Origin: Gracilariopsis chorda | Lineage: Eukaryota > Rhodophyta > Florideophyceae > Gracilariales > Gracilariaceae | Assembly: GCA_003194525.1 (NCBI GenBank) | Contig: NBIV01000125.1 | Coordinates: 156,275 to 220,274 of the forward strand | DNA length: 64,000 bases | Direction of reading: 5' to 3' | Shown here: piece after piece, positions 13,806 to 47,056 of the stretch | How the letters are laid out: each line of letters opens with the position of its first letter | Numbering within the stretch: the stretch's first letter is position 1 | The notes under the pieces: model-generated | Seen by the model: only the letters and a program-made list of their open reading frames with translations | What the model was told of the DNA's origin: nothing | The model's database searches: none | Made by a program: the position numbers and the translations under genes

Positions 13806-13836
<31 letters not shown>

Positions 13837-27104: not shown

Positions 27105-27708
27105 TGAAGTGCAACGCCCTCAGGAAGGGATTCTTGGTACTTGAATGCTTTCCCGATATTATCGGTTGTGTAGTTTTTATATGAACTACACCCCAAAATG
27201 GTGGATATGGACACGTGGGACACGGTTTTGGGTCAATTGGCGGTTAGCTACAATAATGGACGTTGCCACGGAATTTGGAGCATTTTAGTTGATTTTATTT
27301 ATTATTTTTACACCCATTTGTGGGAAGCTAGTACTTATTGCGACGAAGCACTGCCGTCGCACCAATAAACTTTCTCCAACAAGGGACCTCAACCTGGGGA
27401 ATGGGCTCTAGTTGTTGTCGCTTCCGTGGCTTCTCAACTCCTCCTTGGAGGGAAACGCCGTGAACCACGGGACCTCTAACCCCGTTGCACACCTAAAGAG
27501 ACAATCCTTGGGAGTATAATTGTTCCAATCACATTGGTGTTTCGCCCTGTATAGGTAGTCCTGTCCACCGGCATTGCCGTATTTGTTTGTCGCTCTTGCG
27601 ACTCACCCTCGCCCGCTCTTTCTCCTTTCCCTTCACTCCTCCTCCTCCCCCCCTTGAGGGTAGTACATCCCGCTACCCGTGGCCCTCGTGTGCGCATCCG
27701 TCCACACA
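27105..27708 (+). repeat. Element 1 5' LTR, left part
   Basis: Starts TGAAGTGCAACGCC and runs colinear with the first 600 bp of the LTR at 54316. It stops at ACACA (27704-27708), the target duplicated by solo LTR B; the LTR resumes at 44577. Confidence 0.9.
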
Positions 27709-28500
27709 TGTGGTGCAATGTCCGAAAGGGGAAAAACACCGAAAGACGTTCGGGATCTTCCTCTCACGAGGTGAACCGAGTTGGGTAGAGCCGTCCCAGA
27801 GGTGTCACGGCGAGGCCGGTTTGTAAGACCAGGGACACCTGTCGCGACTCGCGCAGGGAGGTGAAGGCGAAGAATCGGTATCCGCGTGAGCGGGGTGTGA
27901 TCCTCAGTAGAGGTATGTTTCCCCGTAAATGGGGGTGTGTGAGCGGATGCGCACACGAGGGCCGCGGATAGCAGGAGGTGCTACCCTAAAAAGAGGAAAA
28001 AGAAAGGGCGAAGAGGAGGAATAGAGGGCGAAGTGAGTCGTGAGAGCGACGGGGACGAACGGCGATGCCGGTAACAATATCCCTACACAGGGCGAAACAC
28101 CAATACAATTGGAACAATTATAATCCCAGTGATGGGTCCCTTTAGATGTGCAAGGGGGTTAGCTGTCCCGTGGTTTACGGCGTTTTCCTCCAAGAAGGAG
28201 TAGAATACGCACGCAAGCGGCAACAACTAGAGCCCATTCCCCAGATTGGGGTCCCTTGTCGGGGAAGGGTTATTGGTGCGACGGCAGTGCGCCGTCGCAC
28301 TAAGTACTAGCTTCCCAGAAATGGGTGTGAAAATAATAAATAAAATCAACTAAAATACTCCACATTTCGTGGCAACATCCACTACTGTGGCCAACCGCCA
28401 AATGGCCCAAAACCGTGTCCCACGTGTCCATACCCACCATTGTGGGGCGTAGTTCATACACACACTACACCACCGATAATATTCGGAAAACGATCAGGTA
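27709..28500 (-). repeat. Solo LTR B, main part (reverse orientation)
   Basis: Begins TGTGGTGCAA, the LTR 3' end read in reverse. It is interrupted at 28500 by the DNA transposon; the missing LTR end is found at 44535-44571. The 5-bp duplication ACACA at 27704-27708 and 44572-44576 brackets the whole. Confidence 0.9.
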
Positions 28501-28502
28501 CG

Positions 28503-28541
28503 TCTGTGTTCTCGGAACGCTAGTACTTGGGGCTAGTTTGG
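28503..28541 (+). repeat. Left terminal inverted repeat of DNA transposon
   Basis: Starts TCTGTGTTCTCGG and contains two GCTAGT motifs, ending GCTAGTTTGG; pairs with 44488-44534. Confidence 0.85.
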
Positions 28542-28608
28542 TCTGATTGAAATATGTCGTCCAAAACTTCTGCAGAAAATGACGGATCTCGAATGCAGAG
28601 GTAGTTTT

Positions 28609-29433
28609 TGTGGTGCAACGCCTCAAAGGGGAGAAACACCGAAAGACGTTCGGGATCTTCCTCTCACGAGGTGAACCCAGTTGGGTAGAGCCCTCCCAGA
28701 GGTGTCACGGCGAAGCTGGTTTGTAGGACCAGGGACACCTGTCGCGACTTGCGCAGGGAGGTGAAGGCGAAGAATCGGTATCCGCGTGAGCGGGTGTGAT
28801 CCTCAGTAGAGGTATGCTTCCACGTAAGTGGGGGTGTGTGAGCAGATGCGCACACGACAGCCGCGGATAGCGGGAGGTGCTACCCTAAAAAGGGGAAAAA
28901 GGAAGGGCGAAGACGAGGAAGAGAGGGCGAAGTGAGTCGCGAGAGCGACGAACAAATACGGCGATGCCGGTAACAATAACCCTATACAGGAAGAAACACC
29001 AAGACACTTGGAACAATTAGTACTCCCAATGATGGGTCTCCTTTAGATGTGCAAGGGGGGTGAACTTCCGTACACTACGGTGCTTCTCTCCAAGGAGGAG
29101 TTGAGAACACGCGGAGGCGGTAAAGCTCAGAGCCAATTCCCCAGGTTGGGGTCCCTTGTTGGGGAAGGTTTACTGGTGCGACGGCAGTGCGCCGTCGCAC
29201 TAAGTACTAGCTTCCCAGAAATGGGTGTGAAAATAATAAATAAAATTAACTAAAATACTCCACATTCCGTGGCAACATCCACTACTGTGGCCAACCGCCA
29301 ATTGACCCAAAACCGTGTCCCACGTGTCCATACCCACCATTGTGGGGCGTAGTTCATATACACACTACACAACCGATAATATCGGGAAAGCGTTCAAGTA
29401 CCCAGAATCCCTCCCTGAGGGCGTTGCACTTCA
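28609..29433 (-). repeat. Solo LTR C with GTTTT target duplication
   Basis: A full 825-bp LTR in reverse orientation (TGTGGTGCAACGCC ... GGCGTTGCACTTCA). It is flanked by GTTTT at 28604-28608 and 29434-29438, so it is a clean insertion later reduced by LTR-LTR recombination. It lies inside the DNA transposon and is therefore younger than it. Confidence 0.95.
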
Positions 29434-29630
29434 GTTTTCGTTAATTTTTTAGAGTGCCAGCTAGTTTTCGCATTCGATTCTAGCACAGAGTCTTCCATAT
29501 TATGAATGCAAAACGAACGCAAAAGACGTCGCTAGTTTACCGTGGAGTTTTGTATGTCATTCGCTAGATGTGAATAACGGGTCTGGAGCTTAAGAACCGC
29601 TCTTACCAACCCATATCACGACGACACCCA
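29434..29630. repeat. Left subterminal CTAGT repeats
   Basis: Several (G)CTAGT and GAATG motifs (about 29459-29580) mirror the richer cluster at 44310-44520. Subterminal repeats of this kind are typical of CACTA-like transposons, where the transposase binds them. Confidence 0.6.
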
Positions 29631-30473
29631 TCAAAACCACTCTCCACCGAGAGGCGGGTGCGTCTCCGTCTCCGGGAACGTCATTTTGAAGAACTCGTCC
29701 GGTACGCTCTCCTCCTTCTCCTTCTTCACTCTCTTCCCCCAACGTCCACAACGCCTCTCCTCATCAACCTCACCATCCACCTCCCACCTCCTCTTGCGCT
29801 GATCACCCAAGATTCTCTCTGCCTCCCTCGCCACCTCTCCTACACTCCTAAGCCCACGAGTCCCCTTCCTAGCGCCCTTCTTCTCCTCCTTCCCTCCACC
29901 CACTCCACGCTTACCGCATCCCTTCAAGTCCGCTCTCACTATCGGCCTCTTCTCCCCAACCCTCCCCTTGCACACCTCCCCCTCGCTCTCCGCAGTGTTG
30001 GCCACAAACCGTACCCCATCCTTCTCGACTTCCCCGTCAAAGCCCCCGTCTCCAGGTCCAAAGCTTATCCCATCGCCACTCACATACCTAAAACCACCCG
30101 TCATCTTACCATTCGGCGTCACAGTCACGGGTGAGCCCCGCCGTCCACCACGACTCTCCCCAACTCCGCCTCCCTCCTTCACCAACTTCTCCACCTCCCG
30201 TAGCCGCGCCTGAAACCTTTCCTGCTCCTCCCTCAACCCTCCCACCTCTCGAACCACAAACGCTGCAATCTTCTTCCCCATCCCACGCACACCCCTCTCC
30301 ACCTCCTTCCCCACCTCCCTCACCATCGCCCTAGAACACAACGCAAGCACTCCCTCCAACCGTTCCTCCTCCGCTTTCTCCTGTTCCCGCTTCTTCCGCA
30401 TACCCACAGCCACGGCTTCCTCAATCTCCGCAAGGAACTGTCCCCAGCTGCGCGATCCGCGGCCACTCGTCAT
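29631..30473 (-). CDS. Highly charged coiled-coil protein of the DNA transposon
   Basis: The 280-residue product starts at ATG 30473; a TTG 11 codons upstream is less likely. Residues about 10-110 are Glu/Lys/Arg-rich heptads (KKREQEKAEEERLEG, then LREEQERFQARLREVEKLV), a predicted coiled coil. The rest is Gly/Lys/Arg-rich and disordered. No family is recognised. The frame is intact, unlike its neighbours. It may bind nucleic acid or oligomerise; this is guesswork from composition. Confidence 0.5.
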   Translation of the reverse strand: MTSGRGSRSWGQFLAEIEEAVAVGMRKKREQEKAEEERLEGVLALCSRAMVREVGKEVERGVRGMGKKIAAFVVREVGGLREEQERFQARLREVEKLVKEGGGVGESRGGRRGSPVTVTPNGKMTGGFRYVSGDGISFGPGDGGFDGEVEKDGVRFVANTAESEGEVCKGRVGEKRPIVRADLKGCGKRGVGGGKEEKKGARKGTRGLRSVGEVAREAERILGDQRKRRWEVDGEVDEERRCGRWGKRVKKEKEESVPDEFFKMTFPETETHPPLGGEWF

Positions 30474-31112
30474 CTCAAACACAACACAGCTCAAAGAAAG
30501 CGGCAAGGATCAAAAGAAGCGGTTGAGATCGAAATAAGTGGAAAGCCCCCGGTGAGAACCTCACGCGCCAGCCGCTCCCGCGCATTCACTTCCCCGCCAT
30601 TTTAACCCCTTCCAAAAACCCCCATACACTGTATTTCAAAATATCTAGCACTTTCTGCTTTTACTTTCATTTCTACCCCACCCAATAACCTCTCTCATAT
30701 CGTCACCCCCTCTCTACACCCCAGATGTACCCCTTCAATGCCCAATAAACTCATATTCTTTACCTCTACCACCATCCCACAGCCCCCATTTACATAAACC
30801 TCATTATTTCTTCTTCATATCCCTTTCCCCCTTTTCCGCACACATTCTGGACCTCTTATACCACTTCTACCAGAAAGTGTTTCTCATCTCCTTCGTCCTC
30901 ACTTCTAAATATTGTGCACTGAATATGAACAGAAACGCGTTCAAAACGCATAGAACAACCGTTTGGTCCTGCCTTTAATCTTCCTTCATCTAGTCGCCAT
31001 CATCTAGTTAAATAAAGCTATTCTTTTGCATATAAAATCAGACACACCTGCCCGTTCTCTCTCTCTCCCGTTCTTCACCAACAGTTCCGCCCTTGACCTA
31101 GCACCTCTAAAC
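30474..31112. other. Non-coding stretch within DNA transposon
   Basis: C/T-rich on the plus strand with no coding frame of note. Probably the promoter of the minus-strand coiled-coil gene and spacer before the membrane protein gene. Confidence 0.4.
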
Positions 31113-32245
31113 ATGTTGTTAGAGAACTTTCGCTCCCAATAATACGTCTTCCTGCACAATGACGTTCGAGCAACTCTCACGTTCGACATTCTCCCCAACA
31201 AAACCTACCTTCGTTTCAACAATTGCTTGAAGCTAGAGTACTGCAGGGACAAAAACAAGTCATATCTTTCAGGCGCAGCATCCATTCTAAGTGATGAAGT
31301 GAAAGCCGAAATGACCAACATTGACCAACTCCTGCGCGACAACCCCTCTGACCCTCGGTTCTTGCAAAATCACCTTCTACTACAAGACCTCCCATACCTT
31401 CGACACATATCCAACTACATTCGTTCCTCTCAATACCTTTCGAACAATCCATTCCATATGGCAAGTCTTCTTTCTCTACTAATTTTCACCTCCCTCCTCT
31501 CCTTCGCCATTGGAACTCTCTAAGGTGTTTTGAAACCAGTGGTCACCAAATTCCTTCTATCCGGCCATTCCTCCTGTGAAGCGGAGACTGGATATACCAT
31601 ACTGTACAGTATCATCGAGACAGTACTCCATATCTTGTTGTTCGACTTTGCATTCTCCCTTCACAAGGAGTTGTTCGGCTCCCTCTCTTTCTGCCCAATG
31701 AACCCCACTCAACATTATGGCAGACTGAGCACCATCAGCGCAAGATTGGCAGGATTTGCCATAGCTGGACTCCTCGCCCTGAACGCGAACATATTTGCCG
31801 CCTACGAACTGCTACCAACGCTTCCCTAAGCTGTTCTATACGGAACGCCTCCATCGCGTTCTTTCCCGGTGGATTCTTCTTCGCCCTAACAGTCTACTTT
31901 GTCGACAGATTGGCCGTGTACGCCCTCACAGGCCACCCGTTCAACAACAGAGTCCTTCTCCAATATTCGTCACACTATCTCTCCAACATCATACAAATTA
32001 TTACGTCAACGGCCTGGAAGTCTCTTCGAAGAGCATTGTTCCTGGACGACATCGTAATCTCCATTCGCACCTTTCTTCGTCGAGTTGTGCCCGTCTTCTT
32101 CGCGCACTTCACTTCGGAGTCCATCCAACCTTCTGCCTTTTCAACCCACAGAGGTTTCTCTCCACTAGTGACTAACACTTTATTCATTCTTCTCCTCGTC
32201 TGCTCCAGCGCTATAGACTACGAAATCAAATATAGATTCAAGTGA
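31113..32245 (+). pseudogene. Decayed multi-pass membrane protein gene
   Basis: From ATG 31113 the frame meets TAA at 31140, continues through TLTFDILPNKTYLRF and about 120 residues of soluble sequence, then a hydrophobic span (MASLLSLLIFTSLLSFAIG), TAA at 31521, and further spans (IETVLHILLFDFAFSL and LAGFAIAGLLALNANIFAA). A frameshift near 31825 moves to frame 2, which adds FFFALTVYFVDRLAVYAL and a last span (TNTLFILLLVCSSAI) before the stop at 32245. About five membrane segments in total. No family is recognised. Two stops and one shift make it a pseudogene, unless small introns are present. Confidence 0.6.
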
Positions 32246-32816
32246 TATATTGCAGCTATCGGAAGAAACCCCAGACCCCCAACCTCTCGGGTCCTTCCGT
32301 ACGAATAACTTCTAGAACAACAGACCAACAATACAGAATACCTTCGTTTTCGTAGCCCCTTCATCTTCTATCTCCCGCATTCCCTTCCAGTCGGCGTCTT
32401 TGCACAGCTGTTAAGATTTAGGATATGTGAGCTACATACTATGCTTCTCTTCTATACCCCATTTTAGAGGTTTTTCTTATAACTATACCACTTTTTTTTG
32501 TACGCGAGTGAGTTCATTGTACGTTTTAGAAAGCGAGTGAGCTTGAAGTAAGATATCCAATGCCAAGGTTCTCCTTGTAGACGACTCCATACACGGTAAG
32601 AATTATATTTGGTTCATTCTGATTCAGAAACACAGTTAGGCGCATATTGTAGTATTAACATATCAAGCTGCGTACGTGGAAAGCTGTTTAGATGTCGCAG
32701 AAGTACGGTTTTAGTAGAAAATTGGAGACCGAAATATTTGAGGACGGGTTAGCGTCGATACTAAATATCTCGCGTACTATATCGCGGCTTTGTTCAGAGC
32801 TTAAGCAATTTTCCCA
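32246..32816. other. Non-coding stretch within DNA transposon
   Basis: AT-rich and without coding potential. It probably carries the promoter of the 220-residue gene. Confidence 0.35.
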
Positions 32817-33479
32817 ATGTCGAGTGGGTACATTAGAGATGAAGAACTGCTCACTCTTTTGAATCACACGGAAGTCCCCGAAACGCCACCCAGAGATGAA
32901 GCAGATGGTTATGAGGGAACAGAAGAGAAGAAGAAGACTGTTGGGCTAGGAGAGCTGGGAGTTGGAGTAATGGCTGCGAATGGAGGAGGAGATGCAGGTG
33001 GTGGACCAGAGCACAGATTCAGAAAGGATATGAAGGCCCGGGTTAAGGCTTTAAGTGCCTCGTTGAAGGAGAGTTTGTATACTTGTATGACAGATGTAGT
33101 GTTTGAGTATGGTGGCCTGTCTTGGAGCGTTTCTGATGGTGTGATTCCACTGGACGTGGTTACTATTGTTCGAAGTCGGATGACAATGGCAGGAGTCTTG
33201 ATGGGGGATCATGTGGAAGGGATCGTGGAGTGCTTGCTGAGGGAAATAGGAGCAGTTTATCGAAAGAACAATGCTCTAGAAGACAGAGTGACTGTCCTTG
33301 AAATGCAGCTTAGAGAGGCCGTTGATATTCAGGTGCACTTGAAAAACAGAATAAACGGAGCACAACACGGGGCAGGTGGAGCAGGCGGTGCTCTTAGAAG
33401 CTGCCTAGGGACGAGAAAAAGAATGGAAGACAAAAGTGAAGATGTGGAGCGAGGTACTCTCTTGAAGAAGAAACGTTGA
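32817..33479 (+). CDS. Unknown 220-residue protein of the DNA transposon
   Basis: Intact frame from ATG 32817. The N-terminus is acidic and Gly-rich (to about residue 65). A central predicted globular part follows (KARVKALSASLKESLYTCM to MGDHVEGIVECLLREIG). Then comes a short coiled coil (NNALEDRVTVLEMQLREAVD) and a basic tail ending LLKKKR, a possible nuclear localisation signal. No known family. It converges on the 2OG-oxygenase-like gene, with 120 nt between stops. Confidence 0.5.
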   Translation: MSSGYIRDEELLTLLNHTEVPETPPRDEADGYEGTEEKKKTVGLGELGVGVMAANGGGDAGGGPEHRFRKDMKARVKALSASLKESLYTCMTDVVFEYGGLSWSVSDGVIPLDVVTIVRSRMTMAGVLMGDHVEGIVECLLREIGAVYRKNNALEDRVTVLEMQLREAVDIQVHLKNRINGAQHGAGGAGGALRSCLGTRKRMEDKSEDVERGTLLKKKR

Positions 33480-33599
33480 GAGGTTAAGACATATGTTTCT
33501 GATATAGAAAGAAAAGGACGACTCCTAGCTTTTATGTGCATCATGATATAACTGAGACTATGCTTTATTTACGGCAGTACTAGAATGTATCTGTCATCG

Positions 33600-36368
33600 C
33601 TAATTATCTTCTTCCATATCCTCATCTCCCTTCTCACCCTCCTCTTGAGTATAAATGGCGTCGTCCGCATTATCATTTCCATCTTCATTAGGGTCATATT
33701 CGCCATCAATTTCATTTTGAGGGTCCTCGTCGTCTTCTAGAGGTTCTTCTGACACTCTGTCATCAGCGAAGCCCTCTTCGTTATCCCCAACTCCTGGCAA
33801 CAGAATGGTTCCTTTCGTTCCGCTTTTGTCCTTCCGTATTAAGTGCTCGTCCTCCACAAACCTGGGCCTAAAACTTGATTGAAGTTGAACCGCATCCGGT
33901 AGCTTGTAGTCCTCTGGTACCATGTATATATGGTAACGGAACAGAAAATTCTGTGCCATGATCGCATCTCTACTCCCTGCCCCGGCATGGGACACATCTC
34001 CTCTTCCAATGAATATAGATAACGGTAGAATTAAAAACTTCCTGGTCGCGTATCCTCCAGAAACCGCTTCCAACTCCGCATTTGTTGTCGCAAAATGCTT
34101 GTGAGACCTCTCGCACACCCACAATGGAAACGAATAATTGCCAGAGGCTATCATAAAGTACCCCGGATTCTTTTCGTTCAGTTTCTCCGGGATCGTCAGC
34201 GTCTGAAAGTCCGTATGTAGCTTCTGTCTGGGACAGCCGCGTCCAGTACACAACACTCTACCCCCAGTCTTTGGCGCAAACATCTTATGCACCGCCATTC
34301 GGTTATCTTCCAATCCTAGGCATACACAGATCTGACCCATACGTGCATCCAACAACGCCCGCCTCTTCACCACCCAGTGATTCTCCGTCGTTCTTTCCAT
34401 TTCATCCGCGATTCCTCTCCGTGTAGTCATATACCTCGTACACCCAGACAGTCTGTCTGCTTCATCAGCTGCCTCCCCAGCATTGAAAATGGGGTTCCAG
34501 AACTCTTGATTCTCTGCTTCTCGAAGATCTTGTTGGCGATTGAAATACTCCTCGAAGAATCCAAGCAGCTTCTCACTTACATCACCATCCATCAAGTCAC
34601 TCATGGCATGGAGCCTGCCCCTCATTCCTTCATCCGTTCCGAAACCTTCCAGCACACAAAATCCTCGCTCTTTCAACTCGCTTGTCTTCTTCGCAAAGTA
34701 CACCATGGCGTAGTAGTCCTCCTCCACCGCCCGCTCCCAGAGACTGTTCGCTTCCGCATCGCTGAGAACCGGCGCTGCTTCTTCAGACGCTTTCCTTTCC
34801 CTATTCCATTCGCTCAAAAGCTCCTGGAACGCACCATGCCAGAAAACTGCGTGATGAACCCCCCTCTTGTCGTTCGGCCCAAGCAAATGGCAACGGTGCT
34901 CCTTGGGAAGATGTATCCTGTCCATCCACGCGTACATGCCCTTAACACCATCTGCAGTTGCGGTGGGCCACCTGCTGGGCAACATGCTCACATACTTGAG
35001 CCAGCTCAAGCCCCCCACATTTGTATCCTCCTCGGCCTTGACCAATCCTTCTGGAAGAATCTGAGGCACTTCATCATCAAACTTCTTCTTGTTTGGATCG
35101 TTCCTGTCTTCATCTTCTCCCCCCTCGTCGTCACTGAAAAGCAGTAGCTTATTCTTTCTTAAGACGTGGCGTAGTTCACGTCCTCGCTTCTGCTTCAGAA
35201 TGTTGATGACAAAGTCAGGAACATCATCGGTTCTCTGCCTTTTCGCATCGGCGTCTACCGATTCAAACAACAGCTCCTCAGCGTCCTCTTCGTCTTCCGA
35301 GTCTTCATCTGCCGGTTTCTTTGTTTTCTGGACCTTTCTCTTCCTCTTCCCCAGCGTAGATCCCGCAGAAACCATCCCCGTTGCACCTCCGTCTTTCAAG
35401 TAGCCCAGAGCCTTCTTTTTACTCGCCCTCGCGGGCAAGCTCGAATTACTACCCTGAACTGCGCTTTGCCCCTGTGTCGTCGGAACAGGTACAGGTGCGG
35501 GAGGGACAGGACTTGGATTTGGCTTTTGAAAGTCCATACGGAACGTCGTTCCCAGTCTCTTCTTCAGATTCGTCAGCCTCTTCGATATGTTTCCTTCCCA
35601 CATGGGAGGAGTGGCCGCCCTCTCCAGGTGTGCGGTGTTTCTGGCAACATAATCTCGAACAGGAACAACCAGGGACCATATCACAACCTCAGTTTTGAAC
35701 ACGGTGTGAAGCCCTATGTTCTTCGTCTTCGCCACTTCTTCAAATAGGTTGTAAGCTTGCTCACAACATCTGAAGAAATGCAACCTCATGTCCTGAAACC
35801 TGCCCATGGCAGTCCCTTTTGATGCTCTTCGCACGTCATAGTGTTTCTGTAAGGCTTCCAACGCAAAGTTCATCCTGTTCCCCTTCAGATTGAAGAACCT
35901 GTCACTGGAAAAGTGCGTAATCCCCAGCTCCGGGTACTTGAAGCACATTTCTTCCATATCTCCCAGAGTGTTCGGCACGCTGTCACTCGTCTTGAACTGA
36001 TACGGGTACTGCATATCTTTGCCATCCTCAATGAGCACCTTCCATATGACGACAATGTCCTCTGTCGGCTTCCCCTTCAGTTCGTGCCCATGCAACGTCC
36101 TCACCAAGTGCCCACCAGCACCGGAATCAACTCTGACAAAGGCAGTCCCCACGCTCTTCTTCTCCCCATTCGGTAGACGGACGACCAGGGTCACCTTCTC
36201 GCTTGGGTTCGGCCCCCAGGATGGGTCACTGGGCTGCTTTGTGCCGCTGCGCGTTGTTGGCATTGCGCTATCGGACGGTGTTGCCCTCGCTTTCCGCACA
36301 GAGGCACTGGGTCTGGTAGATTTCCTAGTGTGCCGCCTGTTGTCCGCCTTTGCAGTCTTGCGCACCAT
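33600..36368 (-). CDS. Large protein with 2-oxoglutarate/Fe(II) dioxygenase-like domain
   Basis: The 922-residue protein starts at ATG 36368 (an upstream in-frame GTG at 36410 lies in a 14-bp duplication). It has a basic N-terminal tail, a conserved-looking segment (about 55-275), a Pro/Ser linker, a basic-acidic disordered middle (about 320-435), then a C-terminal domain (about 450-830) and an acidic tail. The domain shows a 2OG-oxygenase pattern: LHTDF with metal ligands His718 and Asp720, YFMIASGNYSFPLWV, LPLSIFIGRGDVSHAG with distal His794, and FRYHIYM with a candidate 2OG-binding Arg811. Fungal KDZ transposons are known to travel with TET/JBP-type 2OG oxygenases. The gene is intact. Its substrate is unknown; nucleic-acid oxidation is inference. 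Confidence 0.62.
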   Translation of the reverse strand: MVRKTAKADNRRHTRKSTRPSASVRKARATPSDSAMPTTRSGTKQPSDPSWGPNPSEKVTLVVRLPNGEKKSVGTAFVRVDSGAGGHLVRTLHGHELKGKPTEDIVVIWKVLIEDGKDMQYPYQFKTSDSVPNTLGDMEEMCFKYPELGITHFSSDRFFNLKGNRMNFALEALQKHYDVRRASKGTAMGRFQDMRLHFFRCCEQAYNLFEEVAKTKNIGLHTVFKTEVVIWSLVVPVRDYVARNTAHLERAATPPMWEGNISKRLTNLKKRLGTTFRMDFQKPNPSPVPPAPVPVPTTQGQSAVQGSNSSLPARASKKKALGYLKDGGATGMVSAGSTLGKRKRKVQKTKKPADEDSEDEEDAEELLFESVDADAKRQRTDDVPDFVINILKQKRGRELRHVLRKNKLLLFSDDEGGEDEDRNDPNKKKFDDEVPQILPEGLVKAEEDTNVGGLSWLKYVSMLPSRWPTATADGVKGMYAWMDRIHLPKEHRCHLLGPNDKRGVHHAVFWHGAFQELLSEWNRERKASEEAAPVLSDAEANSLWERAVEEDYYAMVYFAKKTSELKERGFCVLEGFGTDEGMRGRLHAMSDLMDGDVSEKLLGFFEEYFNRQQDLREAENQEFWNPIFNAGEAADEADRLSGCTRYMTTRRGIADEMERTTENHWVVKRRALLDARMGQICVCLGLEDNRMAVHKMFAPKTGGRVLCTGRGCPRQKLHTDFQTLTIPEKLNEKNPGYFMIASGNYSFPLWVCERSHKHFATTNAELEAVSGGYATRKFLILPLSIFIGRGDVSHAGAGSRDAIMAQNFLFRYHIYMVPEDYKLPDAVQLQSSFRPRFVEDEHLIRKDKSGTKGTILLPGVGDNEEGFADDRVSEEPLEDDEDPQNEIDGEYDPNEDGNDNADDAIYTQEEGEKGDEDMEEDN

Positions 36369-36664
36369 GATGGGAAACCTTTCGATAAGCGACCTTTCGA
36401 TAAGCGACACGGAATTGCGTAATCTGGTGCAGACGGTCGCGAAAATCAGCGCGTGCTGACAGCTGAATTCAACCCTGAGGGAAGGCAGGTGTTCTCTTTG
36501 CGTCCTTTCAGTCGGACCAGGTGCTAAGGTGGCACGAAGAAGTGGATTCGGTGAGTTCTCTCACAGTTCTTTGCGGAGGAAGCATTCCGGTCGCCCTTTC
36601 CACCTCTTCTCTAACCCCCCTCCTGCCACGCGTCAACGCTTCATTGCTGGCACCGACCCCCAGG

Positions 36665-36895
36665 CCGGCGCAGCTGCGCCGGGTGGTCGGTCTTGACATT
36701 GTCGGTCGACAAGGTCAAGAACGACCCCCCGCAATTTAATCAAAAATCAACATTCTGGTGTCCGTGCTTGACATTGTCGGTCGACAATGTCAAGAACGAC
36801 CCCCCCTTATTTAATCAAAAATCAACATTCTGGTGTCCGTGCTTGACATTGTCGACCGACAATGTCAAGACCATCCACCCGGCGCAGCTGCGCCG
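36665..36895. repeat. Symmetrical palindrome array in a divergent intergenic region
   Basis: Two copies of a GC palindrome, CCGGCGCAGCTGCGCCGG (36665-36682) and its 17-nt match (36879-36895), bracket three 28-bp palindromes of type CTTGACATTGTCG-GT-CGACAATGTCAAG at 36692-36719, 36767-36794 and 36842-36869. The inner sites recur every 75 bp within a 75-bp direct repeat that includes TTTAATCAAAAATCAACATT. The outer arms are themselves inverted (CCGGGTGG next to each GC palindrome). It lies between the ATG of the 2OG-like gene (minus) and the plus-strand unknown gene, so it could be an operator, transposase-binding or origin-like site. Confidence 0.95.
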
Positions 36896-37046
36896 TTAGA
36901 CCGACAACCTGAACTGTGAGAACTGCGACGAATTCTCGAAGTTTCACCTTCTCCGTCTGTTCTGCAGTGCCCAACTCCCTCAATCCAAACAAAACCCTCC
37001 GAAGTTTTTCTCCCTGCTCCATTACACACTTCGAAATCAAATCTAT

Positions 37047-39012
37047 TTGAAGTTCGAGGGACGTGAATCATCAGAACGGGCGTCTTCGTTCCTCGGTTGC
37101 CACGAAGCATCTCCTTCGCAACCATTCAAACTCGAACGCAATCTTTCGTGCATCTGTGCATCTCCCGCCGAAATTCCACCCATGTCGTTCCCCTCCACTA
37201 AACAGGGGAGTACCTCAGGTGCACCCGTTATAGGGCATAGGGCTCCTGCGCACCCGCCCTCAGACATGAGCATTTCGGAAAGCTTCACAACCATCTAGAA
37301 TGTGTTTGTGTCCGTCCGTGATGCGTACGCCGAATCGAGAGGCTCCGGGGTCCCTAAACGCGATGTCACATTCGAGAAGACTGTAGAGTTTATGCTACAG
37401 AATCGTCGAGCGAATTCAGAAGTGGTCGGATTGTTGGAATGATCCCTTGGTTCCTCCCACACCTCCTACAGCGACGAAGAGGTCACTGCTTATCTTTACA
37501 CCTCTGTACAGGGTCCGACGAAGTACTTCCGACAGGTTTATCGATATGTGGCATTGTTCAAAAAACAAGACGGGTCGAAAGACAGGCGTGTACGGGACTT
37601 TTACGAGTGGACCATTGACGGGAGGCGCGGAGGTGGAACAGGGATGGTACAAAAGGTGTTCAACAATGACATCTTCAAGAGGTAATTTCGCGGAGCCGCT
37701 ACGGGGAAGGGAAGGGGAAGGTTTAGGACCGTTGCTGCTACTCGATTCCAACAGCTGCTGTATCTGTCGGTGGTAAAGCACATCGAGATTGAACGCAAGG
37801 GTCGGGAACGGAAGCGACGCCTCGGACACGAAAAGAAGGTGAAGGCAGTGAAGTACGTGGAAATTTTCACCATGTCTAATCGCATGCATGGTCAGCGTAT
37901 GGCGTACGGCGTACAGCACGTATGCAGGGCTTGGGACGCGTTCGCTGTCGTTCTGGGTTCCAGAGACTGCGAGCAGATGATGCTTCCTTATCTCCTTATC
38001 AACAGAGACACTTTTAAGCTCTCTGATATTCACTCCCGAACGATTGGTTACAGCCCCAAAACCGCCGCGTACAAGCTGGGACATGAAATGAAGCCGACGG
38101 TATCCGATGACAATGTTGTTCCCTGGGCTATTGCTTTTTCGGATGACGTAGACCGCAATATGCGTATTCTGGCCAGAGAATTGGTCTCGGAACTTCGGCG
38201 TATTGTACTGGACATGAAGATGTATGAGCTGAGTGAAACCGAGCAATGGCCAGTGCTATCTACGTTAACGCGAAGCGGCACGAACCCACCGGTTCGATTT
38301 GACTCCTTTTCCGATCTTATGTGCGTGGAGGTTGTCTGGTTTAGACAGAATATGTTTCTCTGGTTATGACGTGACTTCGACAAAGTATGGAGAAGAACCA
38401 GATGACTTGTACTTCAAGAACGGATTGAGTGTGGAGGTGTTGAGGGAATTTATGGGGTACGACGCGGAGCGACCGTGCAGGGAACGGGAGACGAGCTATG
38501 TAGATGGAAGTGTGATGCATTTGGCGCGATTGGATGCGTGGATTGCTTCTGTGGTAGAGGCATTGAAAGAAGATGTGGGGAGAGGAGGGAAGCGGCAAAT
38601 GCTGTTTTCGAAATTGTATGCAAAGTATCTCCCGCTTGCTGTGGAGGATATCCTACTGACTGCGAGAAGGAAGATCGAAGGGAAGTACGGGAAAGAGCTT
38701 GTGAACTATGGTGTGAAAGCTGAGGATCCAACTGAAGTGGTAGGGAATGAGGAACGTGAGGGGACCGTTGCGTGTTGGATGCCGTCGAACCGAATGGTGT
38801 ATCTGTGTGTCCAGTACGAGGTGTTTTTGGATGAAATGACTACGTACCTTGGTAATGTATTTGATTGCTACGTAGGCCGTTGCATGCCTGAAGAACGGGA
38901 GTTTAAGGAGTTGTTAGCCGTTGAGGAAGAAATGTTGGACCCAAGAGAGAAAGGGGAGGGGAAGGAAGACGGAGAGGACGGTGGGCGTGGAGAAGAGATG
39001 GCGGAGGAATGA
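37047..39012 (+). pseudogene. Decayed unknown cargo gene of the DNA transposon
   Basis: One coding frame can be followed for about 650 codons with stops at 37296 (TAG), 37440 (TGA) and 37683 (TAA), then a single frameshift near 38345 into a frame that ends at 39012. Recognisable protein-like stretches include VTAYLYTSVQGPTKYFRQVY, RAWDAFAVVLGSRDCEQMML and LFSKLYAKYLPLAVEDILL. The C-terminus is Glu/Gly-rich. I do not recognise a family. It is divergent from the 2OG-like gene across the palindrome array. Confidence 0.5.
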
Positions 39013-39418
39013 GAAGTTTAAGAAGTTTATTGCTAGAGTTAGCGGGTCTGTGTTTCTAAATTTGATTACCTTGCGGTGGAATAAGCTCTTGCTCGTGGGT
39101 CGCGGAAGAATCTGTTCATATAGAACCGATGTTGTTGCCATGGAAGGGGCGGAAAGAAAGGTCGTGCTGGGTAGTTCTGGCGAACAAGATGCACGGAACT
39201 TTTGATGGCGGAGAAAGGAACAAGACCAAACCAAGGTGCGGCATTGAGGCTAGGATTCGAGGTTCCGTGAAGGGCGGGGAGAATAGTATGGTCATGTTCA
39301 TCGTCTGTCGCCCAACGGAGGGTGATGCAGTTAAGAGTTTCATCCACGTGATCAAGAGGATCTGTGAGTTCGAAGAAGCGGACGAAAGCATATTCGCGTT
39401 CACCTGGCTCATCGTCTT
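39013..39418. other. Convergent intergenic stretch
   Basis: About 400 nt between the end of the decayed plus-strand gene and the end of the transposase frame; nothing else seen. Confidence 0.3.
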
Positions 39419-42241
39419 TTATGCGGAAGCGGAGAAGGGCAAGAAGCTTACATACCCAAACCGTGGGAACTTGCAGTTGGGTGGTGGAGTGCTTGAGACG
39501 AGAAGATGACAGAACTTTGGAAGTTCTGAAGGACCGAAGCTGGTGGTGGCAAAGATGCGCTGGGGAACAGGGGCCGATGGTTCTCTGAACCGGATGCATT
39601 TGAACGTTCTGTCGACTTCTTGCAAGGAAGGGGTGAAACCGCTGCGGATGAAGGCGGAGTTGACGACGGAGAAGTTGAGAGAAGAGAGGGAGGGTGAAGA
39701 AGGGGAAAGTCCAAGCGCTTCGAGGCATAGATTGTGAAACGGTGAGATTGCGTTTCGTGAGATTTGGGTGATGAACGATATGGTGGAAGAGGTGAAGATG
39801 TTTGAGAGAGAGGCATTGGAGCAGTTTGGGTTCGCCCGAAGGTACTTTTCTGCGGTGATTATATCCCGAAAGAGAATGGTGGTACCGTCGCGAACCATGA
39901 AATGTCTTCGAGCTGGGAGTGTGTGGGAGTTTGAGGAGGAGGAAAGGTGGTGGGGGATGGCAGTTGAGTTTCGAAAGCCTTCTGTGAGTTGAATTGCGTC
40001 GATTGTTTCTCTGTGAACGGTTGAAGATCTTCGGGATGTGTGCCGATAATGGTTTTTGAAGAGTAGGTGTGCGTGTTCGTAGATGACAGCATCAGTGAAG
40101 TGGAGACCTCCGTATAGTTTGATGTCGGCGACGATGTGATCGAGAAGGTGGAATTTGAGCGTTCCGAAGTGAGAAGCCTGGAAAGGGCCGAGGATGAAGA
40201 CGCAGAGATGCTTGAAGTGCTTGATGAGTTCTTGGAGGGAACGAAGTTGTTGGTGTGTCCATTCTGAGTTGGTGTTGTAGTGGAGTGCGGTAGTGAAGAG
40301 GTCGGCGTGTGTCGTGAAGATGGATGTGATGGGTGCTGTGTCAACTTCGTTGCAGCAACGATCGAAGAAGGCGCCTACGAAGGGAAACACCATGTCGACT
40401 GCGCGGTAATCTTTTGCCTCGAGCATGCCTTTGATGCCGTCCAGGGTGGAGAAGCCGTTGAGGGATTTGCCCTTCTCTGCGGTGGAAAAGTCAATGTGAA
40501 GTCCCGGTGCGGAGAAGTTGACTTCGATATCTGCGAGAATGTTGTTTGCATGGGTGAGAAGGGTGCTTCGAATGGATTTGAATGATCTCGAGGAGGAGCC
40601 AACAGTGGTGAAGATATTGTCGGACTTCAGGCGTTCGATGGTTGCGAGTTTGACGAGTTTGGAGATACCGAGGTGGAAATTGTGAAGGGGTTCGAAGGAG
40701 AAGATGGATTATGGGGTGAGCAGTGGGGAAATGTTGAGGAGGGGGTAAGATTCGAAGAAGGAGTGGTAGGGGGAGAGGGAGTTTGTGTGCAGGAGAGATG
40801 CTGCTTGATCTCTGAGAGTCCTTGCGACGCGCGGTCTGCGTTGTAGTTCGGCGTTATTTGCATCCTTGAGAAAGGCGTCGTGTGAGGATCTTATTTGGAG
40901 GGTGTGGGAAGCGGTTAGAGGGGTTAGGGATCTGAGGTGGAGGCTGAGGTCGGAGCGGGGGACGAGGCATCTATGGCAGGGCTTCAACGGTTTTGTGCCG
41001 TGGAGGACAGCGAGGATGTCTTTCGCTTCGGGGATGTCTGCAGCATAGTTTGCGATGACTGGGTGGCACTGCCGGATGACCTGGTCTTCATCCCGGAAAG
41101 GAAATCCTTTGAGGGCAACAGCTGCGAGGGGCTCGAGGATGGTTTGCAGAGCTTCTTGAATGAGTTCCATTCGGGTGGTACTGGTGATGGCGGAGGAAAG
41201 CGAGCGGTCTTCGAGGGAATCCTCGTTGGATGGGGAGGAAGGGGCTTCAAAGTACGTGGGGTAGTAGCCGAGTAGGGTGTAGTTACGGGATATGCAATGG
41301 CGGCGGAAGGAGTCTGAAAAGTTGAGGAGGGTGATGTGGAGGGGGTAGGAGGTGATAGAAGAGTTCTTGAGCGAGGTGGAAGACTTGTCTGAGTAAAGCT
41401 GTACGAAGCCGATGAAAGATTCAATGCCAGTGATGTTGGAGTTGTGCCAAATAACATCTGGGTCTTGAGAATGTAGGATGTGGTGCTTGAGGTCCTTGTA
41501 GACGCATGTACCGAGTTTTGAAGCCATGGGGTGAGCGTGTGCGGGGGAGCCGTCTGACGCGGACTGTCTTACTGGTTGGAAGAAGGTGTTTGCGCCAGAA
41601 GCGTAGCGGAGTTGTTTGAGGAGGACATCGACGGGGTTTTTCAGGTAGAGAGTTGTGGTGATGTTTGAGGGCTTGTGACGAATAGTTCTGGATTCGAAGC
41701 CGATAGAGCCGACGGTGTCCTCGAAGAGCTTTGCATGGAGTTCAAGGCAGTGGGAGACGGACGTTATTTGTTGGATGAGTGCCTGGGCGTAATCTGGGTC
41801 TTTGAGGAGGTTGATGAGTTCGTCTGCTTTGCGTTTGCTGAGCTTGGTGGCGATGGAAGCGATGTAGGAGAAAATAGGGTGGAGGTTGGCAGGTGCGGGG
41901 GTGCTGGAAGCAGGTGTGTTGCGAGGGGAGGAGAGAGAGGAGTGGAGAAGGTGGACGGCGTCTGCGGAGCGAAGGGCTAGAGTGAGCTGGCTGGAATGGT
42001 ATTCATCGTCTTCCGCGAGCGGAACGTTGTCAGAGGGGCGGTTTGAGATGCGAACGGAGCTGGAGTCTGCGGTGTGAATGCGTGGTCGTTTGGTGCGGGG
42101 TGGGAGCTGGGTGCCGTTCTTGGGAGTGGTGGCGAGGAAGGGGTTGGGGTTGTGGCGGAAGCGACAACGGCGCTGGTGTTGGACAAGGGAGGCCTGGAGT
42201 TTTGTCTGGAAGGAGCACCTGTGGAAGCGACAAGGCTGCAT
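39419..42241 (-). pseudogene. Plavaka/KDZ-type transposase with one in-frame stop
   Basis: From ATG 42241 one frame runs 940 codons to 39419, interrupted only by TAA at 40709-40711. The N-terminus is a C-x4-C-x12-H-x3-C zinc finger (Cys4, Cys9, His22, Cys26). The core has the Plavaka pattern: IGFVQLYSDKSSTS (Asp285), SYPLHITLLNFSDSFRRHC, LLGYYPTYF, then CHPVIANYAADIPEAKDIL and CHRCLVP. After the stop come FEPLHNFHLGISKL and, further on, KFHLLDHIVADIKLYGG followed by EHAHLLFKNHYRHTSRR, the family's helical histidine-rich C-terminal part. Plavaka is a CACTA-related group described mainly from fungi. The stop could be a nonsense mutation or, less likely, read through. A TATATA box lies 64 bp upstream. 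Confidence 0.82.
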
Positions 42242-42304
42242 GGTGCAGAGGAGAAGGATGTAAGTCTGTGGGAGATGAGAAAGACGTGGGAGGCGTTCCG
42301 GGAG

Positions 42305-42311
42305 TATATAT
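42305..42311 (-). promoter_or_regulatory. TATA box of the transposase gene
   Basis: ATATATA on the minus strand, 64-70 nt upstream of the ATG at 42241; supports that start over an upstream TTG. Confidence 0.5.
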
Positions 42312-42639
42312 GACTGCTCAGGAGCAGCAATCAGGTGGCATTGTGATGCGCCAGAGAGGCGCGTGGCAGGCACGGCAGGCATGGCACGTGTGCGGACGGG
42401 AAAGTGGTTTGGAATGAAAACATTCAAAGTTGGTAAATTTTTTAAGCGACGGCGAGGACTTGATTATTTCGCATGAAGAGGTTGGGAACATGTGTAGAAG
42501 AGGGTGTAGATCAGTGTGATCTTCGGAGCGTGCGATTTCCTGGACGCTGGATGTGGCGGAACGTCCCGCTCGTGCTTGCAGGTTCGTGAAGTGCAATTGA
42601 GTACGTCTCGTTTTTTCGTGTGTTGACATGTGCTGACTC

Positions 42640-43860
42640 TTGCTACGCTTTCTATGTTGATGCGGGAGAGGGAGCAGCGGCAGTGTTTTGGGATGAAGCT
42701 AGGGGCTTGGAAGACTGCGAGGAACAGGTGAGTTTGCTATGCTGTTCACTTTTCAATCTGGACGAGGACCTGACATGTTTTGTTTCTTGATACGGAGCTA
42801 TATGAATGAGAAGGGGTGGATCGGGTGAGCAGAAGTGGTTGCTACAAGGTGAGTTAGATTGCGAATGTTATCTGGTAACGACTACGCGCGGAGATCTGAC
42901 AAGATTTTGTTGCTGTCGCGACGCGTTGTGGATGCGGTGATAGGTGAGAGCAAATGAATGGCGAGCATAGAGCTGAGTGCGGTTGTGTTTTAGTTTTGCT
43001 CCATTTTTGGATGGAGATCAGACATGTTTCTGTGTGTTAGCGCGAAGGGAGAGGCATGAGGGAATGGGTGCGAAGAACTGGTTGCTACAAGGTGAGTTTC
43101 ATTGAGAATGTTTTCTGGGACTGGCTACTTACGGAGATCTGACACGTTCTTGTTTTTTGATGCGAAGAGAGCGAGATGGGAAATGGGTTCGAAGAAGTGG
43201 TAAGTGCTAATGTTATCTGATATTGGCTATGTATGGAGAACTGACAAGATTGTGTTGCTGTTGCGACGCGTTGTGGATGCGGTGATAGTTGAGAGCGAAT
43301 GAATGGCGAGCATAGAGGTGAGTGTGGTTGTGTTTTAGTTTTGCTTCGTTTTTGGATGGAGATCTGAAATGTTTCTGTGTGTAAGCGCGAAGGGAGAGGC
43401 ATGAGGGAATGGGTGCGAAGAACTGGTTGCTACAAGGTGAGTTTCATTGAGAATGTTTTCTGGGACTGGCTACCTACAGAGATCTGACACGTTCTTGTTT
43501 ATTGATGCGAAGCGAGCGAGATGGGAAATGGGTTCGAAGAAGTGGTGGTTGCAAGGTGAGTTTAAGTGCTAATGTTATCTGGTATTGGCTATGTACGGAG
43601 AACTGACAAGTTTTTGGTTTCTGCTGCGAAGCGTTGTGGATACCGTACTAGGTGATAAGGAGTGGGTGTTTTTCTTAGAGGTGAGTGCGGTGGCGAAGTT
43701 ATTTTGGATTCTTTATTTGATGGAGATCTGACTTTTGTTTGTTTATTGATGCGAATGTGCGAGAGAGAAGTTGCAGATTGGATGAGGTTTGATGGTTTCT
43801 AACGAGTGTTTGTTTGTGTTTGCTTATTTGTATCTTCTGCAGGTGCGAATGGGGAGGTCG
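42640..43860 (+). repeat. Tandem modules with splice-site-like organisation
   Basis: Modules of about 120 bp repeat at least eight times, grouped in a 345-365-bp higher-order unit. Each has a GTGAGT, then a GGAGATCTGACA-type element about 50 nt later, a T-rich stretch and GCGAAG. Read as introns they are about 70-80 nt with donor GTGAGT, branch-like CTGAC and acceptor GAAG. The exon-like pieces before some donors encode variants of one peptide: MGSKKWWLQ, MGAKNWLLQ (twice) and EQKWLLQ. The last element ends CTTCTGCAG at about 43841. Whether it is transcribed and spliced is unknown. Confidence 0.7.
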
Positions 43861-44003
43861 AAGGGAGAAGGTGCAGCGAGGGGGGATGAGCAGAGGTTTG
43901 GATGGGGTACGTGTGTTCAACACAAGTTGTGTTATTGGAGGCGTCGTGATGAAAGGAGGGTGCGCATTCTAACTTGTTTCTTTGTGGTTTCGTTTTGTGA
44001 CGG

Positions 44004-44153
44004 GTACAGGCCTCGCTTCACCGTCTATCGTGGAATGGAGGCTGTTTTTGTTACCGTTTTCGATTTGTTCTAGGCGCACTACGTCTGGAGCAAAATGAAA
44101 CGACAATGAAAGCGGTTTCCATTCCACGATAGACGGTGAGGGGAGGCCTGTAC
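44004..44153. repeat. Inverted repeat, about 40-bp arms
   Basis: Arms 44004-44043 and 44112-44153 share GTACAGGCCTC..CTCACCGTCTATCGTGGAATGGA with few mismatches; the loop is about 68 nt. It lies between the modular array and the right subterminal repeats. Confidence 0.85.
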
Positions 44154-44289
44154 TGGCGTAGTATAGATTCAAGATTACATCCATTAGACGAGGTAAAAGT
44201 GAATGAGTACCGCATCCGAAACGTCCATGTCTGCTAGATTTCATCGCCGATGGTGAATGATCTGGCACTAGATGACAAACATTCACCCC

Positions 44290-44534
44290 TTCACTGTTCG
44301 TAGTATTTATGCTCTAGTATGAATGAGAACTGAACGATAGACTGCTAGTTTCTTACTGCTAGTATGAATGTTGCTAGTTTTCTCACATTCACCTCTGCAT
44401 TCATTTGAGCTAGTATTTTGTGCTAGATATACTAGCACAAAAGTTCTGAGATTTTTTTGAATGCCCACCATAGACTTTCTAGCACCCCCAAACTAGAAAA
44501 ACTAGCACTCAAACTAGCATTCCGAAAACACAGA
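44290..44534. repeat. Right subterminal CTAGT cluster and terminal inverted repeat
   Basis: More than a dozen CTAG(T/C) motifs in both orientations plus several GAATG, ending in the right terminal repeat (44488-44534). They match the motif found at the left end. Confidence 0.8.
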
Positions 44535-44571
44535 AGTACCCAGAATCCCTCCCTGAGGGCGTTGCACTTCA
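44535..44571 (-). repeat. Solo LTR B, remaining end
   Basis: AGTACCCAGAATCCC to GCGTTGCACTTCA is the missing terminal 37 bp of solo LTR B, displaced by the DNA transposon insertion. The duplication ACACA follows at 44572-44576. Confidence 0.9.
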
Positions 44572-44576
44572 ACACA

Positions 44577-44804
44577 CCCCCACTTACGTGGAAACATACC
44601 TCTACTGAGGATCACACTCAGCTCACGCGGATACCAATTCTTCGCCATCACCTCCCTGCGCAAGTCACGACAGGTGTTCCTGGTCTTACAAACTGGCTTC
44701 GCCGTGACACCCCTGGGAAGGCTCTAACCAACTGGGTTCACCTCGTGAGAGGAAGATCCTGAATGTCTTTTCGGTGTTTTTCCCCTTTGGGGCATTGTAC
44801 CACA
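44577..44804 (+). repeat. Element 1 5' LTR, right part
   Basis: Resumes the LTR exactly where the left part stopped and ends in GTACCACA. It is followed by AAG and the primer-binding-like TGGTCTCCCGACC (44808-44820). Confidence 0.9.
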
Positions 44805-44909
44805 AAGTGGTCTCCCGACCTATAATCGGTGTTTGTTTTCCCTCTTTCGAGGTTTGTCTTCCACTTCCCGGAAGTTCCAGAATCGTTTCCGTCGTGACGG
44901 TAGCTCGTC

Positions 44910-47048
44910 ATGTCGAGGAAAGCCTCCGATGCGGAGCGTGCGGTCACCCGCAGTCGTTCCCATGATGGTGGAGAAGTCCCCGAAGTTCGGTTCGTATCCC
45001 TCATTCCGAAGCGGACCGGCTCCAGCTCCGCTGGTGGACCCTCTTCGAGGAATTGAAACCAACCCCTGGAACCCCGGAACACTCTTTTGCCCTCGTTGTC
45101 ACCCCCGCAAGTGAATGATGCATCGACTCTCGCTTTCGCGGTATCAAACTCCCGTGGAATGGTCGACAATACCCCCCAGGGGACACCCCTGGATCCCCAG
45201 GTCCGCGCCCTGTTGACCGCCCACGACACCCTTGTAGGGGAATTGAAATCCCTCCAAGAGGTGGTTATGGCAACCCCTGTGAAAGAGGTTGCCCAGGACC
45301 TCCGTATTTTACGGTCTGATGTCAACTCCGTGTTGGAGAGTTTGGGGCAGCCCGCCACCTTCATCGAAGGACTTGAAGCCCGATTTGATCGGATTAGTGC
45401 CCGCCTGGAGACGCAGGAGCAGTTCGTCCTCATGGATAAACCATCCCCGGATGATCCGGTAAATGAGGCATCGCACAACGACCAGGTTGCTGGAAAGAAG
45501 AAACGCCGTCATCGACGGAAACACCACCGAAAATATTCGAACTCTGATTCTTCGACATTGTCGGACTCATCCCGAAACCATTCGGTTAGCTCGAGCTCCT
45601 CGGACTCCGACTCCGTGGATGAGAAGCGAGGCTACTCCTCCCGCTCGAAGCGGTCATCGGCCACTGAAGATGTGATCCGAACCCGCCAGAAGGGGAGAAG
45701 ACACCCCGGTCTCCGGGAGGTGAAGCCGACAAACCCAGATTACCGGAAGTTATTATCATACCGGTACTACCGGCTGAAACATTCGTCACTTGGACGTACG
45801 CCCCGTGGTACGGGAAAGGTGCGAGAATGCATTAAGGGAATGCAGCTCTCGCTCTGCAACCAGTATTTTACTGGAGAGGACCTGGTCCTAATACTGGATT
45901 TCCTATCCCGATTTGTAGCGGAGGCCGATATCCTCGGTATGAATGAGGGACAAGCCTTCTTGGCTTTACCGTATTTCTTACGGGGAGTGGCGGAGGACCA
46001 ATACAACTCTGTCAGAGGATCTTCCCGCGCCTCCGAGGGAGGAGTTACTTGCTGGCCGGAAGCGGTGCAGTATCTACTGCGTTCTTACGCCACAAACACC
46101 GCTATTCAGCAGGCTATCCTCGCTTCGCGAGGTACACGCCAGCGTGCTGGAGAGACCGAGACCGATTACTCGGTGCGCCTTAACAAGGCTTTCCACAGAT
46201 GTGGTAACATATACCCCGCTGGAGAGCTCTGTACCATGTTCATCGATGGTCTTGACCGGGCAATCCGGAGTTTAGTTACCCGTTATCGGGAGGATAAGCG
46301 GAGGATCACCTATCTCGAGCTGGTCCAACACTCTCGGGCGGAAGGGGATGCACTTCGTGCAAGAACTCCTAACAATCGGTCTAAATCCGCCAAGGCGTTG
46401 ATGATGGAGAGCGACTCCTCATCGCTCCCGCTCACTGCGGATAGGAACGCTAGACAGGGATTTGATACCGTGCATTTAATGCAGGGGGATGGTGTGTCGA
46501 TTCCAACCAACGATTTACCGTCAACGGCGGAGATGACCCGTGATACGGGAACAGAAAATCCCGTTCTATACGGTGGTAACGGTCGGGTCCAACTCCAACG
46601 ACTCACGTTTTCAAACGGTCAATCCCGTTATCAACGGACTGGATGGAGTGACACCCGCCCTGCGGCTCGCTTCTCCGATAATCGGAATAATAATCCGCGT
46701 GTCGCGGTGTTGGCTCTCATTTGCCCCCTTTGTTATGCCCATGGCCATACCTCGCCTCAGTGTATCTGCTCACTGAAGGATATGGCCAAGGTGGTGGCAA
46801 ACTACGAGGCCCTCACTCCAGAGGAGAAACGTTCCATCCCGACGGCTTCCTGCCTCCGTGCTAAAACGGACTTCTCCCATGCCCTACCACAGACTCCGCG
46901 TGTGCGGCAAGCTTCATACACCCCGATTCGGGAGATCGCGCAACCATCCGTTGCCACCCCGCTTATGCGGATAGAAACCTCCGTCAACGGGATGAAGCAC
47001 TCGTTGTCGAGGAAACCAACCCACCGCCGAAGGCGGAAAACTAACTGA
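44910..47048 (+). pseudogene. gag: Element 1 gag (broken)
   Basis: Homologous along its length to the intact gag of element 2. ATG 44910 opens MSRKASDAE, but TGA at 45054 interrupts the frame, which then continues in phase. It contains the acidic/Ser-rich spacer, a capsid-like helical region (SYRYYRL to RAEGDALRART) and a CCHC zinc knuckle CPLCYAHGHTSPQC near 46721-46762. A single-base deletion near 46955 shifts the last 30 codons relative to element 2. Confidence 0.9.
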
Positions 47049-47056
47049 GGGAGTCT

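Follow-up and report, generated by a model that had tools for sequence, protein, structure and literature searches.

The 64,000-nucleotide window analyzed here (a stretch of contig NBIV01000125.1, C125 for short) contains a giant cut-and-paste DNA transposon of the Plavaka class. The element occupies positions 28501-44536 (16,036 bp) and sits within a solo long terminal repeat (LTR). The copy in the window is dead and internally deleted. As the best explanation of the data, which we consider reasonably probable, it is a remnant of a giant Plavaka transposon whose cargo would set or counter an epigenetic state; the central cargo gene is predicted to encode a DNA methyltransferase fused to a SET domain. 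The host is likely a red alga, as had originally been proposed, because the genome yields seven matches to PBS_linker_poly (best E 9e-41) and one gene with a Phycobilisome domain (E 1e-4), searches for which only Synechococcus was positive among 14 controls each.

The class assignment rests first on the transposase gene (39069-42343, minus strand), which is interrupted by an in-frame stop at 40709-40711 and by a change of frame near 39440-39473. The frame at 40712-42463 matches Plavaka (PF18759) with an E-value of 4.1e-20 and 72.7 bits, against a cut-off of 26.3; the second piece (39419-40708) has no Pfam match. Both pieces align to an open frame of 1091 aa in another copy, C228. At least 114 PF18759 matches are present genome-wide (123 of 133 candidates scored), and six relatives, all carrying PF18759, were found among 8000 scored candidates from the protein database, with 29-35% identity locally and 25-31% over the whole alignment. 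Seven residues (D319, D442, C456, C459, H731, H735, and E755) are invariant in all eight aligned transposases. This series of D, D, C(2)C, H(3)H, and E would correspond to the EnSpm-Plavaka-Transib pattern, in which C(2)C and H(3-4)H lie between the second catalytic D and the last E (PMC12730594), with the choice of catalytic D here a putative one.

The original prediction had placed the element in a Plavaka/KDZ type; the Plavaka half of that assignment holds, and the KDZ half does not. No KDZ model matches either transposase piece at E <= 1, the target duplication is 2 bp rather than the 8 bp of KDZ (Zisupton) elements, and Plavaka itself is placed with EnSpm/CACTA-Transib and not with KDZ (Kojima 2025, PMC12730594). 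Duplications of 2 bp agree with those of Plavaka (2 bp in PlavakaA, 2-3 bp in PlavakaB). The termini, CGTCKGTG..CACMGACG, differ from those described for fungal Plavaka elements: the TGT..ACA of PlavakaA is not seen, the ends being CG..CG as set by the duplication, nor is the CATCA..TGATG of PlavakaB, in place of which CGTCK..MGACG is found. Likewise, neither the CAC..GTG termini nor the 3-bp duplications of CACTA/EnSpm proper are present.

The exact ends were set by comparing 28 paired copies from the same genome, consisting of 8 long copies with a TCTGTG end, including that of the window, and 20 copies of a TCGGTG group (5.9-11.8 kb), the latter used out of 26 that could be paired by eye from the terminus matches listed. 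CG lies directly outside TCKGTG in 28/28 left flanks and 26/28 right flanks. Outside this CG, an exact 2-bp duplication is found in 26/28 pairs and a 3-bp duplication in none; with shuffled right flanks, 2-bp agreement averaged 3.4 and reached at most 11 in 1000 shuffles. The element therefore begins with CGTC and duplicates 2 bp of its target. Alignment of the 28 pairs led to the rejection of two other candidates, a 4-bp duplication GTAC at the window element and CG as the target duplication.

In the window, the termini are CGTCKGTGTTYTCGGAAYGCTAGW, and the duplication is TA (28499-28500 and 44537-44538). The left terminal inverted repeat (28501-28524, plus strand) consists of CG followed by TCTGTGTTCTCGGAACGCTAGT, while in the right one (44513-44536, minus strand) the outermost two bases have changed from the usual CG to AG. 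The inverted termini that had been reported at both ends are borne out, since the 22-bp terminus occurs at exactly two sites in the window, in inverted orientation (28503-28524, plus; 44513-44534, minus), where none is expected (100 shuffles). The predicted left limit of 28501 was correct; the right limit, given as 44534, is moved to 44536 by the CG and 2-bp duplication of the 28 pairs. Subterminal clusters of CTAG, also foreseen, are present: with the nested LTR excluded, there are 6 in the first 300 bp and 13 in the last 310 bp, compared with 24 in the other 14,597 bp. On the left these lie at 28520, at 28533, and, four of them, at 29434-29567; the 13 on the right lie at 44234-44517. Between the transposase and the right end are 345-bp tandem repeats (42890-43546) and an imperfect hairpin (44003-44153). 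In blast comparison with other loci, a matching inverted stretch was found for the hairpin in six of ten, two of the ten stopping short of the region.

Other copies sharing the termini, which the original prediction had proposed to seek, are abundant. In the assembly searched (91.3 Mb, 1081 contigs), the terminus occurs at 132 + 126 sites with <=3 mismatches, versus 1 + 1 for the reversed control. Blast of the window element against ten loci gave about 95-97% identity to C3, C12, C28, C228, C320, C330, C1, and C37 and 82-88% to C98; the stretch from C53 had no match over 150 bp. Copies C28, C320, and C37 carry 1.1-1.35 kb near 35953-35962 that the window copy lacks, and C37 carries a further 4.3 kb that is absent at 38310-38314. 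Conversely, C3, C12, C228, C330, and C1 are without a counterpart of window positions 33695-36524. The aligned blocks overlap by 5-10 bp at most deletion joints, the first joint of C37 being the exception. The idea that these segments are nested insertions was rejected, as the comparison of copies indicates that a longer form lost them. The cargo is therefore richer than the window, which holds such a deletion derivative, displays. By adding the missing parts, the full long form would come to about 21 kb, no single long copy being complete; the 20.5 kb of C98 was not used as a size estimate, some of its frames looking by eye like a nested retroelement. In the TCGGTG group, 102 ends match the 22-base left terminus with <=1 mismatch, and 60 of these match it exactly; together with the 99.3% identity of C143 and C550 across 2.8 kb, this indicates recent activity.

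The cargo gene of greatest interest is represented in the window by its first 472 residues (36900-38315, plus strand), with both catalytic domains lying in the segment that is absent here. In the relatives, these domains can be recognized. A 942-aa frame of C228 matches N6_N4_Mtase (E 5.5e-12), and the end of the gene in C37 matches both the methylase, over the last part of the profile only, and SET. At locus L089 (contig C236, 13000-16000), PF01555 and PF00856 both score above their cut-offs within a single frame of 831 aa. Both do so as well in a frame of C550, again with only the last part of the methylase profile, the gene there being divided between two frames, of 701 and 398 aa, that overlap. 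The E-values for SET (PF00856) are 1.6e-6 in C37, 1.8e-5 in L089, and 2.1e-5 in L082; in L088, where the frame stops within the domain, the match falls below the cut-off (E 0.0025). The methylase motif is DPPY in L088, L081, and L083 and DPTY in L089, and the nearest solved structures are those of DpnA and CcrM. Judged by these motifs and profiles, the protein looks able to act as a fused N6/N4-type DNA methyltransferase and SET lysine methyltransferase. A word-based search, which needs shared short exact words, found no relative of it at E <= 0.001 among 4680 candidates. As a side observation, neither a Plavaka match nor a listed end lies within 15 kb of the open 831-aa frame of L089; this locus may be a host gene or part of either a diverged Plavaka or an element of another type.

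The remaining cargo consists of proteins that Pfam does not name. A membrane protein gene (31008-32305, plus strand), whose frame is broken in the window, encodes 434 aa with 5-6 hydrophobic segments in C228; it has at least 101 matches, including homologs of about 35% identity in the TCGGTG group. We note that the strand of this gene relative to the ends is opposite in the window lineage and the TCGGTG group (L083). A 986-aa open frame (33603-36557, minus strand) belongs to a protein of about 1,400 aa, which is intact in C550 (1417 aa) and 31-46% identical between lineages; the window frame is shorter by about 1.34 kb near 35953-35962, an in-frame loss of 447 codons. Of the gene for a protein of about 820 aa, only the last part (38314-38913, plus strand) is left; this protein has at least 59 matches, and several copies retain an open frame of 820-821 aa for it. 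Two further open frames encode 292 aa (29634-30509, minus strand; also in C320) and 224 aa (32805-33476, plus strand). For the membrane, ~820-aa, 292-aa, and 224-aa proteins, no Pfam family scored above its cut-off. Pfam scans of the cargo gave no TET/JBP family at E <= 1, and among the frames given to Pfam, which were not all of the frames, no capsid, polymerase, or packaging family appeared. The predicted large, cargo-bearing character of the element is confirmed, the relatives carrying richer cargo than the window copy.

The cargo is a linked and ordered set. In the relatives, the full layout is membrane protein, ~1,400-aa protein, methyltransferase-SET, ~820-aa protein, and transposase, and among the matches listed, 63 of the 66 clusters with at least three modules follow this order on either strand; C31, C46, and C550 contain all five modules, and the exceptions are C37, C212, and C346. 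Of 150 listed methyltransferase matches, 101 have a Plavaka match or one of the 188 listed ends no farther than 10 kb away, against an expectation of about 7%; counting Plavaka matches alone, the number is 71. For the ~1,400-aa protein, 51 of 54 listed matches (several to a locus) have a methyltransferase match, a Plavaka match, or an end no more than 15 kb away. Among the matches listed, the membrane gene is found in 19 of the 20 paired TCGGTG copies.

The ratio of nonsynonymous to synonymous substitution rates (dN/dS) was computed by NG86, which gives only a rough value for dS above 1; for nine pairs with more than 30% identity, dS was not usable. Between lineages, the ~1,400-aa gene gives 0.13-0.40 (13 computable pairs, without C1-C46 and C179-window), methyltransferase-SET gives 0.22 (C550-C7) and 0.18 (C7-C143), and the transposase gives 0.33 (C228-C550) and 0.47 and 0.31 (C550-window). 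For one pair of membrane proteins, dN is 0.145 and dS is 0.445. Within the window lineage, values are 0.70-0.90 (C179-window, 0.70; C228-window transposase, 0.90 and 0.72). The share of differences at third codon positions is 0.55-0.61 in five cargo pairs, 0.44 in a transposase pair, and 0.40 in a within-lineage pair. Given low dN/dS between lineages and near-neutral values in close pairs, the cargo looks to be under purifying selection between lineages and to decay in dead copies.

These findings suggest a model in which the transposase would bind the CTAG-rich ends, excise the element, and join it at cuts staggered by 2 bp. Faulty repair of the gap would then generate deletion derivatives like the window copy, with a few bases shared at most joints. 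The methyltransferase-SET protein would methylate DNA, of the adenine-N6 type judging by its closest relatives, as well as a lysine of a protein; together with the ~1,400-aa protein, it might keep the chromatin of the element open or otherwise protect the element, a role like the one suggested earlier for TET/JBP enzymes carried by fungal transposons. The cargo would be part of the element's own fitness rather than host genes carried by chance. A more detailed version of this model, which we regard as quite unlikely in all its particulars, envisages a self-marking lineage, in which the fused protein would put a methyl group on adenine in DNA and another on histones, possibly at the CTAG palindromes clustered at its two ends, and the ~1,400-aa protein would read or reset this mark. 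Self-marking would allow elements that encode a membrane protein and reach about 21 kb to persist in a small red-algal genome.

Several results weigh against the favored explanation. Two of the 28 pairs, C3 and C12, are without a target duplication. C3 may be a recombinant or a misassembly, because it agrees with C228 in the left flank and, at 100% identity, in the membrane gene, while the right flanks of the two differ. In C228, which is of the window lineage, the methylase may be inactive because its motif reads DAPY instead of DPPY. Furthermore, 43 of the 150 listed methyltransferase matches, an upper figure, lie more than 15 kb from a Plavaka match or listed end, and the methyltransferase may be a gene of other elements, or of the host, as well. 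Among the 20 paired copies of the TCGGTG group, none contains a listed match to the ~1,400-aa protein and three contain one to the ~820-aa protein, suggesting that neither is needed in cis. Constraint is weak in some close pairs (C1-C46, 0.73 and 0.80; C550-C143 methylase, 0.48). Finally, searches of Pfam, PHROGs, NCBIfam, and PDB gave no convincing match for the ~1,400-aa protein. A reading of it as a 2-oxoglutarate-Fe(II) dioxygenase rested on an HxD...H...R pattern seen by eye and was confirmed by no profile or fold match, and a ParB-like reading of its middle, also by eye, was likewise not confirmed, a genome search for PF02195 (ParB_N) giving 0 matches at E <= 1. A word-based search found no relative at E <= 0.001 among 7999 candidates, again needing shared short exact words, and an AlphaFold model made without an alignment was unusable (predicted local distance difference test score, 34).

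A different view of the same cargo, to which we give an appreciable but minor chance, is that it serves transposition or replication directly, through end binding, target choice, or assembly, with the methyltransferase as a DNA-recognition subunit or a marker of donor ends instead of a means of countering silencing. In Spm, TnpA acts beside TnpD in transposition. The single module order in 63/66 clusters, the ~820-aa frame that stays open in several copies, and the palindromes clustered at the ends, which could be sites of methylation or binding, would all fit such a direct role. However, shorter copies with no listed ~1,400-aa match have multiplied, though helpers could have supplied the protein in trans, and a SET domain has no obvious role in binding ends.

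It is highly improbable that the element is instead a virus-like or conjugative mobile genome whose membrane protein serves transfer from cell to cell. That a membrane protein of 5-6 hydrophobic segments is conserved in another lineage (about 35% identity) is indeed odd for a transposon, but no capsid, polymerase, or packaging family appeared among those frames that were given to Pfam, and scans of viral contigs with alignments of the transposase and the ~1,400-aa protein (two peptide patterns each; 120 + 42 pattern stretches) gave no relative. About equally improbable is that host genes were caught as passengers between two Plavaka ends with no benefit to the element. The near-neutral decay in the window lineage and the two cargo proteins for which the word-based searches found no relatives could be read in this way; however, the idea is largely contradicted by a gene order common to many loci and by constraint between lineages that is comparable with, or exceeds, the constraint on the transposase.

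The surroundings of the element record a series of insertions. A 5' LTR (27105-27708 and 44572-44806) was split by solo LTR 'a', with a duplication ACACA (27704-27708 and 44572-44576). Solo LTR 'a' was later split by the transposon into a larger part (27709-28500, minus strand) and a remainder (44537-44571, minus strand), and thus the flanks are two parts of one LTR, as had been recognized; related LTRs in the window run straight across the insertion point with a single TA. The transposon was then entered by solo LTR 'b' (28609-29433, minus strand), which has 5-bp duplications (GTTTT, 28604-28608 and 29434-29438) and is absent at the matching place in C3. Elsewhere in the window, a single LTR retroelement is present twice, head to tail, at 44572-53266 and 54930-64000, with about 92% identity between the copies; 21426-22537 holds about eight tandem copies of a 141-bp unit; and 13336-13552 and 13821-14022 are inverted repeats of each other, with 89% identity over 217 aligned bp.

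There are precedents for the size, for the host group, and for an epigenetic cargo (PMC6431247, PMC11244446, PMC12730594). The EnSpm families of the red alga Chondrus crispus are 16-20 kb long with 4-5 open reading frames (ORFs) (Kojima, Bao and Jurka 2013, Repbase Reports, cited in PMC6431247) and resemble the present element in host group, size, ORF number, and a CACTA-related transposase group; this comparison is by description only, and if the ORFs match, the new part would be the reading of the genes. Fungal Plavaka elements have in common with it a transposase with C(2)C and H(3-4)H, 2-bp duplications, and, in some PlavakaB families, an epigenetic enzyme (TET/JBP) as cargo (PMC12730594); they differ in that here there are five or more genes, with DNA methyltransferase-SET in place of TET/JBP. 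In Amoebidium, Plavaka 'giant repeats' are described with tyrosine recombinases, for which red-algal hits are mentioned (PMC11244446), in an account that gives neither termini nor target duplications; no tyrosine recombinase was matched among the frames scanned here. A SET gene in or beside a DNA transposon is described for HarbingerS and MuDR of Phytophthora (PMC12730594), and SETMAR likewise combines a SET histone-methyltransferase gene with a DNA transposon. These three involve other transposase groups, and their descriptions include no fusion to a DNA methyltransferase. EnSpm-Plavaka elements of the green alga Auxenochlorella provide another case of Plavaka in an alga, with no cargo mentioned in the description (PMC12636532). 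Among the open-access titles and abstracts listed in literature searches, which did not extend to Repbase Reports, none was on a DNA-methyltransferase-SET fusion in a transposon. As far as these searches reach, what is new is the conserved gene set, above all this fusion; the suggestion that the element marks a new lineage or a horizontal arrival is not established.

If the favored explanation is correct, the fusion would be a writer counterpart to the TET/JBP erasers of fungal transposons, combining a DNA methyltransferase of bacterial type with a SET domain of histone type. It would then become testable whether a transposon alone can set both DNA and histone marks. In addition, the exact ends and the 2-bp rule can be used for annotating such elements in red seaweeds.

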